Assembly: GCA_002084585.1 (NCBI GenBank)
Contig: NBLM01000004.1
Span: 1-36,479 of the forward strand
From: Planctomycetales bacterium 4572_13
GTDB taxonomy: Bacteria; Planctomycetota; Phycisphaerae; Sedimentisphaerales; Anaerohalosphaeraceae
Direction: 5' to 3'
DNA: 36,479 nucleotides
Each line of letters begins with the position of its first letter. The first letter of the stretch is position 1. The notes below the pieces were generated by a model, which saw only the letters and a list, made by a program, of their open reading frames with translations, ran no database searches and was not told where the DNA came from. The translations under genes were made by a program, and so were the position numbers. Shown in pieces: positions 8,152 to 14,385 of the stretch.

Positions 8152-8295
8152 GTTGCTACTGCCAGCATGGCAGGGCGGGGGCGAACCGATATGCCGTTTC
8201 GGGCATATTGGGTTGTGATAAAACGGGGTGTATATTTTGTTAACTTCATTATATAAAAAGGGATAGGAGTTTATTGCTAAGAGCAGAAGTGGCTT

Positions 8296-8311
8296 TTGGC
8301 ACAGTATTTGC
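8296..8311 (+). promoter_or_regulatory. candidate sigma-54 (-24/-12) promoter of groESL
   Basis: TTGGCAC-AGTAT-TTGC; GG (8298-8299) and GC (8310-8311) separated by 10 nt as in RpoN promoters. Confidence 0.6.
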
Positions 8312-8379
8312 GAAATGGTGTTTATTCGTTATAGTCATTAAAGTTTAGAAACCCATTTGATAACAGGAGAGTAGCAAAA

Positions 8380-8667
8380 ATGAAGATCAGACCATTAGGG
8401 GACAAAGTCATCGTGCAGCGGTTGGAAGCGGATGCTATCACTGCCGGCGGGATCGTTCTGCCGGAATCGGCCAAGGAAAAACCGCAACGCGGCAAAATTG
8501 TCTCAGTCGGCGACGGCAAGCAGCTTGACGACGGCAGCCGGGCCAAAATGAGCGTTAAGAAGGGTCAGCAAGTCCTGTTTACCAGCTATGCCGGTACAGA
8601 AGTGAAGGTGGGCGATAAGGAACTGCTGATTATGGACGAGTCGGACATTCTGGCAATCGTTGAGTAA
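8380..8667 (+). CDS. groES: co-chaperonin GroES
   Basis: MKIRPLGDKVIVQRLEADAITAGGIVLPESAKEKPQRGKIVSVGDG...VLFTSYAGTEVKVGDKELLIMDESDILAIVE. Confidence 0.98.
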   Translation: MKIRPLGDKVIVQRLEADAITAGGIVLPESAKEKPQRGKIVSVGDGKQLDDGSRAKMSVKKGQQVLFTSYAGTEVKVGDKELLIMDESDILAIVE

Positions 8668-8724: not shown

Positions 8725-10356
8725 ATGGCAGCAAAAAAGATTGCATTTAATACAGAGGCCCGTGCGGCGATTCGCGAGGGCATTAAGAAACTCACCGCGG
8801 CGGTCAAGGTAACACTCGGCCCGTGTGGCCGGAATGTTATTTTGGAAAAATCCTTCGGCAGCCCGACCGTCACCAAAGACGGCGTCTCGGTCGCCAAGGA
8901 GATCGAACTGGAAGATTCGTATGAGAATATGGGCGCTCAGATGGTCAAGGAAGTCGCTTCCAAGACCTCTAATGTCGCTGGTGACGGTACGACGACGGCG
9001 ACGATTTTGGCTGAAGCGATTTTTGAAGAGGGTCTTAAGAACATCACCGCCGGAGCCAATGCGATGCAGGTCAAACGCGGCATCGACAAAGCCGTTGCGG
9101 CGATGGTTGAGGCGCTGGGCAAGATGAGTACCCCCGTTGATTCCAGCAAGCAGGTCCAGCAGGTTGCGACCTGTTCGGCCAATCAGGATGCCGAGATCGG
9201 CAAGACGCTGGCTCAGGCGATGGATAAGGTCGGCAAAGACGGCGTGATTACCGTTGAAGAGGGCCAGTCGCTGGAGACCACCGTTGATCTGCTCGAAGGG
9301 ATGCAGTTTGACAAGGGCTACCTCAGTCCGCATTTCGTCAACAAGCCCGAGAACCGTGAGGTCGTTCTGGAAAAACCCTATGTCCTGATCCATGAAAAGA
9401 AGATCAGCGCGATCAAGTCACTGGTGCCGGTTCTGGAAAAGGCCGCCAAGCAGGGTCGTCCGCTGTTGATTATCGCCGAAGACATCGAAGGCGAAGCATT
9501 GACCACGCTGGTTGTCAATAAACTCCGTGGTGTATTGCAGGTTTGTGCGGTTAAGGCCCCGGGTTTTGGCGACCGCCGCAAGGCCATGCTCGGCGACATC
9601 GCGACATTGACCGGCGGACAGGCACTGTTCGAGGATCTTGGTTTGCAGCTCGAAAATGTGGAATTGAGCCAGCTGGGTTCGGCCAAACGGATCACCATCG
9701 ACAAGGACAACACCACCATCGTCGAAGGTGGTGGCAAGAGCAGCGACATCACCGGCCGCATCGAACAGATCAAACGCGAGATCGAGGCATCCACCAGTGA
9801 TTATGATATTGAGAAACTGCAGGAACGCTTGGCCAAACTGGCCGGCGGAGTGGCACAGATCAATGTGGGTGCTGCGACCGAAGCAGAAATGAAAGAAAAG
9901 AAAGCCCGCGTCGAAGATGCTCTGCACGCCTGCCGTGCGGCGGTCGAAGAGGGCATTCTGCCCGGTGGCGGTATTGCGATGATCAAGTGCCTCAAGGTGC
10001 TGGACAAGGTCAAGGGCAAAGGCGACGAAAAGGTCGGCGCTGATATTGTGCGTCGCGCACTCGTGGCTCCGATCAAGCAGATCGCGACCAACGCCGGTTT
10101 GGATGGTTCGATTGTCGCCCAGAAGGTTCTGGAGTCCGACGAAGCCAACTTCGGCTATGACGCAGTCAGAAAACAGTACGGCGACATGGTCAAGTTTGGC
10201 GTGATCGTGCCGACCAAGGTCGAGCGAACGGCCTTGCAGAACGGCGCTTCAATCGCGTCGCTGCTGCTGACGACCGACGCGATTGTCAGCGAGATTCCCG
10301 AAGAAAAATCAGCCCCCGCCATGCCTCCAGGCGGCATGGGTGGAATGGGAATGTAA
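8725..10356 (+). CDS. groEL: chaperonin GroEL
   Basis: [99 protein letters not shown]...GGMGGMGM tail. Confidence 0.99.
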
Positions 10357-11516: not shown

Positions 11517-13751
11517 TCAGATCTTTGGCAATGTGATTGTAACGGTCGTTCCGGCGGCGGGCTCGGTGGTTAGCTTTAGATCCCCACCGTTGAGGTCGAG
11601 CAGCCGCTGCGCATGGGCCATCCCCATCCCGCGACGACGACCGGCCGCACAGGATGAAAAGAACGGGTCTGTCGCTTTAGCCGCCGTTTCGGCATTCATC
11701 CCGCAGCCGGCATCACGAATCGCGACCGAAACCGCCTTGCCATCCGGCGACACACAACCATCGGCCCACACCGGACCCTTTTCGCCTTGATACGATTGCA
11801 GCGCGTTGGTTAAAACAGACGAGATGCTCTGTACGATCTGGTGTACATCCACGAAAACGCTGTCGCTGGTTCCATCTCCGGTGATCTCGATCTCCATCGA
11901 GCCAATCCCGCACGCCCGGCAGGTCTTTTCGACGGCCTTATCCAGCAGTTCCCGAATCGAAACGGACTGTTTTCTGGGTTGCGGCGGGTTTGCAAAAGCC
12001 AACAGGTCGCTGACAATTTTCGACATTTCATCCGTTCGGCTCTGAATCTGGCTGAGCATTTGTTTTTTATTCTCATCCGTTTCGGCCTCCAGCAACAATT
12101 GTGACCGGCCGGAGATAATCGACAGCGGATTGTTCAATTCGTGCGCCGCACCCGCCGCCATTTCGGCCAGGCCCGCCAACGATTGCCGTTTGGCAAGTTC
12201 CGCACGCATCTGTCTAAATGAACCCATCACCTGCACAAACCGCTCGGCGAGTAATTCGTGTTTATGGGCGGCCAGTGCCATCGCAATCGTCGCGGCCGCG
12301 ACTTTGCAACTCAACAATAGCCCCTTGTTGTCGGCGTCATCTGCGCTTTCGGTGAAGCTCTCAAATATCACCACGCCGACCGCTTCGTCACCCATCTTCA
12401 AAGGCGCCATCTTCAGCAGAGTCGGGTTGAAATCTGCGTCAAGCTGCTCGCTCAACCACTTGGCCGCATCCGCCACAGGCAATACCGTCGTCTGCCGGCG
12501 AAACGCTTCCGGAATCGGCGGCATCGCAGGCGGGACTTGCAATGTCTTTACTTCACACCGGCCCCGCCGATCCACCGTCGCCATCTCCACGAACGGCTCC
12601 GTCGAGTCCGGAACCACAAAGACACAAGTCAGGCCGCTTTGGCAATGCTTCTGCCAGCATCCGGCCAATGCCTGCGCGATCTCCATCGCCGAGGTGTTTT
12701 CATCCACCTCGTTCAGCAGATCGTCAATCAAATCCGCCTGTCCGCTCAATCGTGTATAATCACGGGATGCGGTATTGATCCTGCGGTTATCCTGAGCCAG
12801 GTCCGTCGCCGTTTTGCGAACCATCGCATAGTAATGCGATGGGTCATCGGCCGCCTCAAGACCCAGCAGCGCGCCTCTGGCATCGACCGTCTGAACCAGA
12901 TTATCCGTAATCCGGGCCAATTGCTGCGGGGTGATTGATAAAAGTTTCGATAATGGCTCGATGTCCTCCGTCCGGTCATAGCTGCCGCTGTGTCCCAGGC
13001 CCATCTGACGAACGATGCGATCCGCCAATGCCACGATCCGAACAATTTGAACATTGTCCAAATCAGCACTGAGCGTTTGCCCGTCGCAATGATGCAGCCA
13101 GATCGCCGAAATGACGGCAGGCGGCAAAGACCATTTTTGGCCGAGTCGCTTGCCCAAAACCGCATGGTCCAGCCCAAGGTGCGATTGCTCAACCTCCGCA
13201 AGCCCCGACTGACTGCTGCGGGCCTGATCGACCATTTTCGCAAAACTCCTCGGCATCACCTCGTCTAAGGCACACTTTCCGATGTCGTGAAGCAACCCCG
13301 CCAAATAGGCCGTCGGTCGCTGCTCCGGGGCAAGCACCTTTTCGGCGATCTGCCCGGCACAACAGCCGGTCGCCAGCGAATGCAGCGCCATTTGTTTTCG
13401 GGGAAACAGCTGCTTAGCGTCCGCGGCTTCGTTGCCGCTGAGAACCTCAAAGACCTTGACTGAAATGACCGCTTCGCGCAATAACGCACCCGACAGCTTC
13501 GAAACCGCTTCGGCAATGGTCGGCTCACCAGAAAACGCGATTCGTTCCTGATGGGCCAACGCCAGCACCCGCACCGTCAGGGCCGGATCCGATTCAATCC
13601 GTTCGGCCAGCAGCGCCGGGTCGGCGGCGCTGTCATTGAGTTTGCTCAAAAGATCGGCGGCCACCGCCGGAAGTGTCGATAGGGAGGTCAACTGCCGAAC
13701 AATGCGTTCGACCTGTCGGGCAACCATTTTTTGATTATTCTGTTCGGGCAT
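11517..13751 (-). CDS. HDOD domain - GAF-like - histidine kinase (HisKA/HATPase) fusion
   Basis: N-terminal HDOD (LSTLPAVAADLLSKLNDSAADPALLAERIESDPALTVRVLALA; LLHDIGKCALDEV), then GLAEMAAGAAHELNNPLSIISGRSQLLL (H box) and VLTNALQSY/RDAGCGM/GMGMAHAQRLLDLNGG ATPase motifs. Confidence 0.9.
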   Translation of the reverse strand: MPEQNNQKMVARQVERIVRQLTSLSTLPAVAADLLSKLNDSAADPALLAERIESDPALTVRVLALAHQERIAFSGEPTIAEAVSKLSGALLREAVISVKVFEVLSGNEAADAKQLFPRKQMALHSLATGCCAGQIAEKVLAPEQRPTAYLAGLLHDIGKCALDEVMPRSFAKMVDQARSSQSGLAEVEQSHLGLDHAVLGKRLGQKWSLPPAVISAIWLHHCDGQTLSADLDNVQIVRIVALADRIVRQMGLGHSGSYDRTEDIEPLSKLLSITPQQLARITDNLVQTVDARGALLGLEAADDPSHYYAMVRKTATDLAQDNRRINTASRDYTRLSGQADLIDDLLNEVDENTSAMEIAQALAGCWQKHCQSGLTCVFVVPDSTEPFVEMATVDRRGRCEVKTLQVPPAMPPIPEAFRRQTTVLPVADAAKWLSEQLDADFNPTLLKMAPLKMGDEAVGVVIFESFTESADDADNKGLLLSCKVAAATIAMALAAHKHELLAERFVQVMGSFRQMRAELAKRQSLAGLAEMAAGAAHELNNPLSIISGRSQLLLEAETDENKKQMLSQIQSRTDEMSKIVSDLLAFANPPQPRKQSVSIRELLDKAVEKTCRACGIGSMEIEITGDGTSDSVFVDVHQIVQSISSVLTNALQSYQGEKGPVWADGCVSPDGKAVSVAIRDAGCGMNAETAAKATDPFFSSCAAGRRRGMGMAHAQRLLDLNGGDLKLTTEPAAGTTVTITLPKI

Positions 13752-13782
13752 GCAAGAGTCCTCTGGTCAAAGTGGCATCCGA

Positions 13783-14385
13783 TCAACGCGCCACAGCGAC
13801 GAATTCGGTGTCAACGACCTGCAGGATCCTGCCCACCAGATCGGCGATATTGAACGGTTTTTTAATAAATTCGGTTGCCCCGGCGTCGAGTAAATCCTGC
13901 ACCTCTTCCGGATTAGCAACCCCGCTGACAATAATGATCCGAATACTCTCGAAAGCCGGATTGCTCTTAATGGTCGCACAGACGATATTGCCGTTCACAT
14001 CCGGCAGCATATAATCCAGAATAATCACATCCGGCCGGAACTGTTCGGTTTTAAGCCCGGCCTCATAGCCGCTGCCCGCCGTCTGGAGGTCGAAACGACC
14101 GTCCCGGCTCAACACATCGACCATCAATTCGACGATTTCAACATCATCATCTACGATCAGCACCTTAATCTTGCCGTTCTTTTCAGTGTTGAAATTGTCC
14201 AGCGGGATACCGTTGTCTTTCATAAACTTGATCAGCTTTTCTCGTGGAATCCGCCGAAACCGCGACCCCGGTATCCGAAAACCGTCCAACCGACCGGAAT
14301 CGAAACATCGAATGATAGTTTGCTGGCTAATATTGCAGATTTGGGCCGCCTCACCCGTCGTAAAAAGATTTTTCATCTTATCCAT
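13783..14385 (-). CDS. response regulator with N-terminal excisionase/MerR-like HTH and C-terminal REC domain
   Basis: LFTTGEAAQICNISQQTIIRCFDSGRLDGFRIPGSRFRRIPREKLIKFM HTH, then KVLIVDDDVEIVELMVDVL...DVIILDYMLPDVNG...IIIVSG...KPF receiver. Confidence 0.9.
   Translation of the reverse strand: MDKMKNLFTTGEAAQICNISQQTIIRCFDSGRLDGFRIPGSRFRRIPREKLIKFMKDNGIPLDNFNTEKNGKIKVLIVDDDVEIVELMVDVLSRDGRFDLQTAGSGYEAGLKTEQFRPDVIILDYMLPDVNGNIVCATIKSNPAFESIRIIIVSGVANPEEVQDLLDAGATEFIKKPFNIADLVGRILQVVDTEFVAVAR

Follow-up and report, generated by a model that had tools for sequence, protein, structure and literature searches.

A predicted sigma-54 promoter before groESL, as a member of a putative sigma-54-dependent chaperone regulon in Planctomycetota

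In bacteria, the expression of chaperone genes is as a rule controlled either by a heat-shock sigma factor or through a repressor that is released. The groESL3 operon of Bradyrhizobium japonicum, controlled by NifA and sigma-54, carries a sigma-54 -24/-12 box before groESL, as does the locus described here; groESL3 is however a specialised copy among several and depends on NifA, whereas the present case concerns the primary groESL and, with it, dnaK. In Chlamydia, which belongs to the same superphylum, the hrcA-grpE-dnaK operon has tandem sigma66/sigma54 promoters (PMC8762339, citing Soules 2020). This is likewise a sigma-54 promoter on a heat-shock operon, but Chlamydia still has HrcA as well as a housekeeping promoter, with AtoC as activator, while HrcA is absent here. 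In Myxococcus xanthus, the orphan response regulator MXAN_4468, encoded upstream of groEL2, exerts negative control jointly with HrcA (PMC9040617). A stand-alone response-regulator gene also lies directly upstream of the chaperonin gene in relatives of the organism studied here, but not in the window, and HrcA is absent.

In Planctomycetota (mainly Planctomycetia) and in Bacteroidota, predicted sigma-54 promoters were reported to be enriched before chaperone COGs (PMC12316311, PLoS One 2025). The basic link between sigma-54 and chaperones in Planctomycetota is thus not new; that paper describes a PSSM/COG enrichment, and a text search of it found no upstream activating elements. Beyond it, we describe here conservation within one order, two upstream elements (e1 and e2), an RR-groES-groEL arrangement (RR, response regulator), the absence of HrcA and a protein that could be the activator. 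The e1/e2 architecture and the candidate activator appear to be new: in the literature searched, no description was found of e1/e2, of the RR-groES-groEL arrangement or of the activator before planctomycete chaperone genes.

The window, i.e., the whole stretch of DNA analysed (36.5 kb), comes from a genome of 1.81 Mb that is 83% complete; judged by GroEL, the named genomes closest to it are metagenome-derived ones of Sedimentisphaerales/Phycisphaerae. The features around groESL are as follows.

8160-8172, plus strand: e1, dyad TGCCA-N3-TGGCA (TGCCAGCATGGCA), starting 137 nt before the -24 box; candidate enhancer
8186-8211, no strand assigned: second dyad, CCGATATGCC-N6-GGCATATTGG, from a repeat search
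8240-8266, plus strand: e2, TTAACTTCATTATATAAAAAGGGATAG, dyad-like, A/T-rich and 26 bp long, 57 nt before the box; may serve a second regulator or as a DNA-bending site
8297-8311, plus strand: predicted sigma-54 (RpoN) -24/-12 promoter, TGGCAC-AGTAT-TTGC (TGGCACAGTATTTGC)
8308-8335, plus strand: sigma-70-like TTGCGA-N16-TATAGT, overlapping the sigma-54 box
8380-8667, plus strand: groES, 95 aa (Pfam Cpn10, 7.5e-34; NCBIfam GroES)
8725-10356, plus strand: groEL, 543 aa (TIGR02348, 7.7e-246), the only groEL match in the source genome, 83% complete

The sigma-54 box, which the original prediction had placed about 70 nt before the groES ATG with GG and GC 10 nt apart, was indeed found there. It matches the consensus TGGCAC-N5-TTGC at 10/10 positions, with GG at 8298-8299 and GC at 8310-8311, exactly 10 nt between them; it starts 83 nt upstream of the ATG (8380), and the -12 GC ends 69 nt upstream. 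Transcription from this promoter would be expected to start at about 8322-8323, in agreement with the start proposed earlier. The box is the single zero-mismatch match in the window. When two mismatches were allowed, 44 matches turned up where 45 were expected, and information is thus carried by perfect matches only. Even a perfect box is no proof by itself, since the whole genome contains four, compared with six for the reversed pattern; the significance of the groES box thus comes from its position and its conservation. Downstream of groEL, on the minus strand (11517-14385), an HDOD/HD-histidine kinase gene adjoins a receiver gene whose product carries HTH_17 at its N terminus, a pair that was not found in the relatives' groES loci examined.

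Two of the other perfect boxes in the source genome lie before recognisable genes.

C46:25042-25056 (L179:1501-1515): perfect sigma-54 box, 85 nt upstream of dnaK
C95:3354-3368 (L181): perfect sigma-54 box, between the gene of a NifA-like GAF-AAA+-Fis bacterial enhancer-binding protein (bEBP; L002) and an amtB-like ammonium transporter gene

The amtB-like gene is a classic sigma-54 target, and the box before dnaK had been missed by the original prediction. The remaining perfect match (C92:783, L180) was rejected as a promoter, as it has no evident promoter context: it is contained in a repeat-like stretch with CGCTTGC motifs (L180, 400-900), and the match is probably due to chance.

Conservation before the groES of relatives, on which the original prediction had been staked beforehand, was clearly observed. 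The groES genes of 59 relatives were sorted into a primary type (type A, which includes that of the window) and a second type (type B). In the same genus, a 10/10 box precedes type-A groES at 7/7 loci, though spacer and distance to the ATG differ. Across the order, a 9-10/10 box lies within 700 nt of type-A groES at 42/42 loci with enough upstream sequence, compared with a mean of 0.35 and a maximum of 2 in shuffles. Type-B groES lies within a groEL-groES-groEL operon (L373, L374, L375, L376) and has such a box at 5/45 loci; in this operon, a 9/10 box was found 71-131 nt upstream of the first groEL in three of the four loci read. At dnaK, in seven families of the order, a 9-10/10 box is present at all 50 loci, 61-197 nt upstream of the start codon. 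The original prediction held that sigma-54 would be unusual for a main groESL, on the model of Bradyrhizobium groESL3. Sigma-54 boxes are instead the norm in this order, since none of the assessable primary groES genes and none of the dnaK genes examined lacks one upstream.

An early reading that the groES loci of some relatives lacked a box proved wrong, as in these the box precedes a response-regulator gene. It lies there 450-640 nt upstream of groES, before an RR gene that is co-oriented with groES and encodes a stand-alone receiver-domain protein of 130-180 residues. In the window, the box is followed by groES with no RR gene in between. The RR genes of many relatives (L097, L104, L106, L115-L128, L008-L011) share the conserved motifs WAWPEA...IFxPRG and VDxD.

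It could be argued that the box is a chance match combined with shared ancestry, in line with the four perfect boxes for six reversed ones in the genome. We consider this practically negligible, because it is already contradicted by differing spacers and flanks, by occurrence before two unlinked genes at 42/42 and 50/50 loci and by reversed-pattern controls of zero. A housekeeping sigma-70-type promoter driving groESL, with an incidental sigma-54 box, is very improbable too. The overlapping, weaker sigma-70-like site that had been pointed out earlier does exist, with a 9/12 match by scan, and chaperone genes often have dual promoters; among relatives, however, only the nearest (L089) shares it at that position, while the sigma-54 box occurs in every groES and dnaK locus assessed, and such a promoter would leave e1, e2 and the dnaK boxes unexplained. 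The sigma-70-like site is probably incidental. From its sequence context, 8297-8311 is very probably the groESL sigma-54 promoter, a member of a shared sigma-54-dependent chaperone regulon.

Upstream dyads, a mark of sigma-54 promoters which the original prediction had proposed to look for, were indeed found: e1 and e2, both overlooked at that time, are conserved and constitute putative activator sites. They were obtained by a motif search anchored on the sigma-54 box; a first search of the groES set, within 120 nt, gave only a weak e1 because e1 lies farther upstream there. The TGYCA-N3-TGRCA pattern has e1 as its sole match in the 36.5 kb of the window, where its extended form is CTGCCAGCATGGCAG at 8159-8173, and it differs from the NifA site TGT-N10-ACA. 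At a match of at least 9/10, e1 accompanies 38 of 43 groES boxes and 49 of 50 dnaK boxes, compared with 0.1 in shuffles. It lies mostly 77-85 nt upstream of the dnaK box; relative to the groES box, most copies fall at -121 to -127 or at -134 to -140. These groES clusters, near -124 and -137, suggested a helical periodicity that we do not claim, as the period test was weak (R 0.63, several periods equal). The e2 element, of the form TAA...TTA, was found by motif search at -53 to -57 in 25/25 of the groES set; in the dnaK set it lies at -41 to -44 in most families and at -54/-55 in family f7. The second dyad (8186-8211) was dropped as an enhancer in favour of e1, since only a degraded form exists in the closest relative (L089) and conservation beyond L089 found no support.

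One may ask whether e1 is rather the operator of a repressor or of an unrelated factor. Dimeric repressors typically bind small palindromes whose arms are 5 nt long, the bEBP is a candidate, and e1 occurs at several distances. We nevertheless judge this reading improbable, as e1 mostly lies 77-140 nt upstream of the boxes, farther than the polymerase would cover and at a distance usual for enhancers, and accompanies the box from gene to gene.

The same arrangement was sought blindly in 294 Planctomycetota genomes, using a composite pattern made of e1, 50-80 nt and the box. This strict-spacing scan reached 32 of the 294 genomes, with 35 sites that are not all independent, some coming from one family (f34), and the module is not claimed to be universal across the phylum; the reversed-pattern control gave 0. 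Among 30 composite loci read, 28 precede chaperone genes (dnaK 9, groEL or groES-groEL 14, clpB 3, hsp20 2); of the other two, one lies before a receiver-domain gene and the second is unclear. The e2 element, which was outside the search pattern, recurs at -41 to -44 in 14/23 composite spacers outside the order (combined p 1.6e-9, an optimistic value since several loci are related). Taken with the box before all assessable type-A groES and all dnaK read in the order, this recurrence before chaperones points to a general chaperone regulon and not to a NifA-type nitrogen-fixation circuit. Heat shock in Rhodopirellula baltica induces ClpB, GroEL, DnaK, DnaJ, GrpE and Hsp20 (PMC2754498).

As stated in the original prediction, no CIRCE element was found within 400 nt of groES. 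In line with this, HrcA gave no match in the source genome (83% complete) and, in the 294 Planctomycetota genomes, a single weak match inside a 1197-residue frame; HrcA is effectively absent from the phylum.

The source genome does contain the components that such a promoter needs and that the original prediction advised to check, namely rpoN (L001, PF04552, 1.5e-57) and four full PF00158 bEBPs (L002-L005). Among these, L003 (family c9) combines a receiver domain, a sigma-54 AAA+ domain and a Fis HTH (PF00072, PF00158, PF02954), an NtrC-type layout. The bEBPs were clustered with those of twelve other genomes of the order, nine of them (nearly) fully read and three (G037, G038, G002) in part. 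Family c9 is the only one present in all ten (nearly) fully read genomes, i.e., the source and these nine, including G042, which has four bEBPs. Outside the order, a c9-like protein with the recognition helix IGERTLYRK occurs in the composite-bearing genomes G304 (three bEBPs), G295, G113, G207 and G106; no c9 member was recognised among the bEBPs read from composite-bearing G064, G066 and G069. The 15 c9 proteins form an exclusive clade, with weak support at the deep node (0.595) and 0.996 for the order clade. It should also be noted that the sigma-54 activator domains encoded by G069 number 56, many of them lying within frames 900-1900 residues long.

This link between c9 and the regulon rests on presence and absence, and makes L003 the best candidate for the activator, a role that we rate as just short of an even chance. 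In an alignment by eye, the phospho-acceptor Asp of the c9 receiver is present in several orthologues and apparently replaced in the source genome and in G021; because of this apparent loss, the input signal of c9 may not be phosphorylation. Alternatively, the box may be active under another bEBP. This could be the NifA-like GAF protein L002, as for the NifA-dependent Bradyrhizobium groESL3, or belong to the c10 family (L004), whose AAA+-Fis proteins have no receiver. L002 adjoins the perfect box before amtB, and short c10-type bEBPs occur in many genomes. We hold this unlikely, as c10 was not found in G042 and the L002 family was not found among the bEBPs read from G021 and G010, three genomes that keep the dnaK box, and as the regulon consists of chaperones and not of nitrogen genes.

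From a mechanistic point of view, sigma-54 polymerase at a -24/-12 box forms a closed complex whose opening needs a bEBP, and bending sites are common between enhancer and promoter. By analogy, sigma-54 RNA polymerase would sit on the groESL box in a closed state, unable to open it alone, and a bEBP hexamer would bind upstream, most likely at e1 given its enhancer distance, while e2, lying between enhancer and promoter, would help as a second site or a bend. ATP hydrolysis by the bEBP would then open the promoter upon protein-folding stress, heat or unfolded protein being the signal suggested by the target genes. One activator could switch on dnaK, groEL, clpB and hsp20 together, as the module stands before dnaK as well and, elsewhere in the phylum, before groEL, clpB and hsp20, and this sigma-54 module would replace HrcA/CIRCE, effectively missing from the phylum.

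In a variant of this scheme, the sigma-54 promoter would superimpose induction by stress or growth phase on basal transcription that starts elsewhere, either by upstream read-through or from an unrecognised planctomycete sigma/ECF promoter. GroEL is normally essential and requires a basal supply, the Chlamydia operon cited above has tandem promoters (PMC8762339), and weak sigma-70-like sites lie between box and ATG in many relatives. Such dual control is plausible, yet we find it somewhat doubtful, because a scan for the sigma-70-like consensus found no conserved second promoter before groES. As judged from the genomic evidence, the best explanation overall is, with high confidence, an activator-dependent sigma-54 chaperone (heat-shock) regulon that includes groESL. 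More tentatively, and at somewhat less than an even chance, this could be an ancestral heat-shock system of Planctomycetota, in which a dedicated c9 bEBP would read e1-e2 and drive dnaK, groESL, clpB and hsp20 via sigma-54, without HrcA or a heat-shock sigma factor for these genes, most of the order co-expressing the RR with groESL as feedback.

Activation of a sigma-54 system has to be driven by ATP, and such a system should be silent when its activator is missing; for a stress response that is essential, this represents a different kind of control. That one conserved module recurs upstream of several chaperone genes, while the phylum lacks HrcA, suggests in concrete terms how heat shock could be coordinated in planctomycetes, and both the cis-signature and the candidate regulator are open to testing in cultured species. 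In view of the sigma-54 design shared by many heat-shock genes and of the essentially complete lack of HrcA, planctomycetes may thus rely on an activator, and not on a heat-shock sigma factor or a repressor, to turn these genes on.
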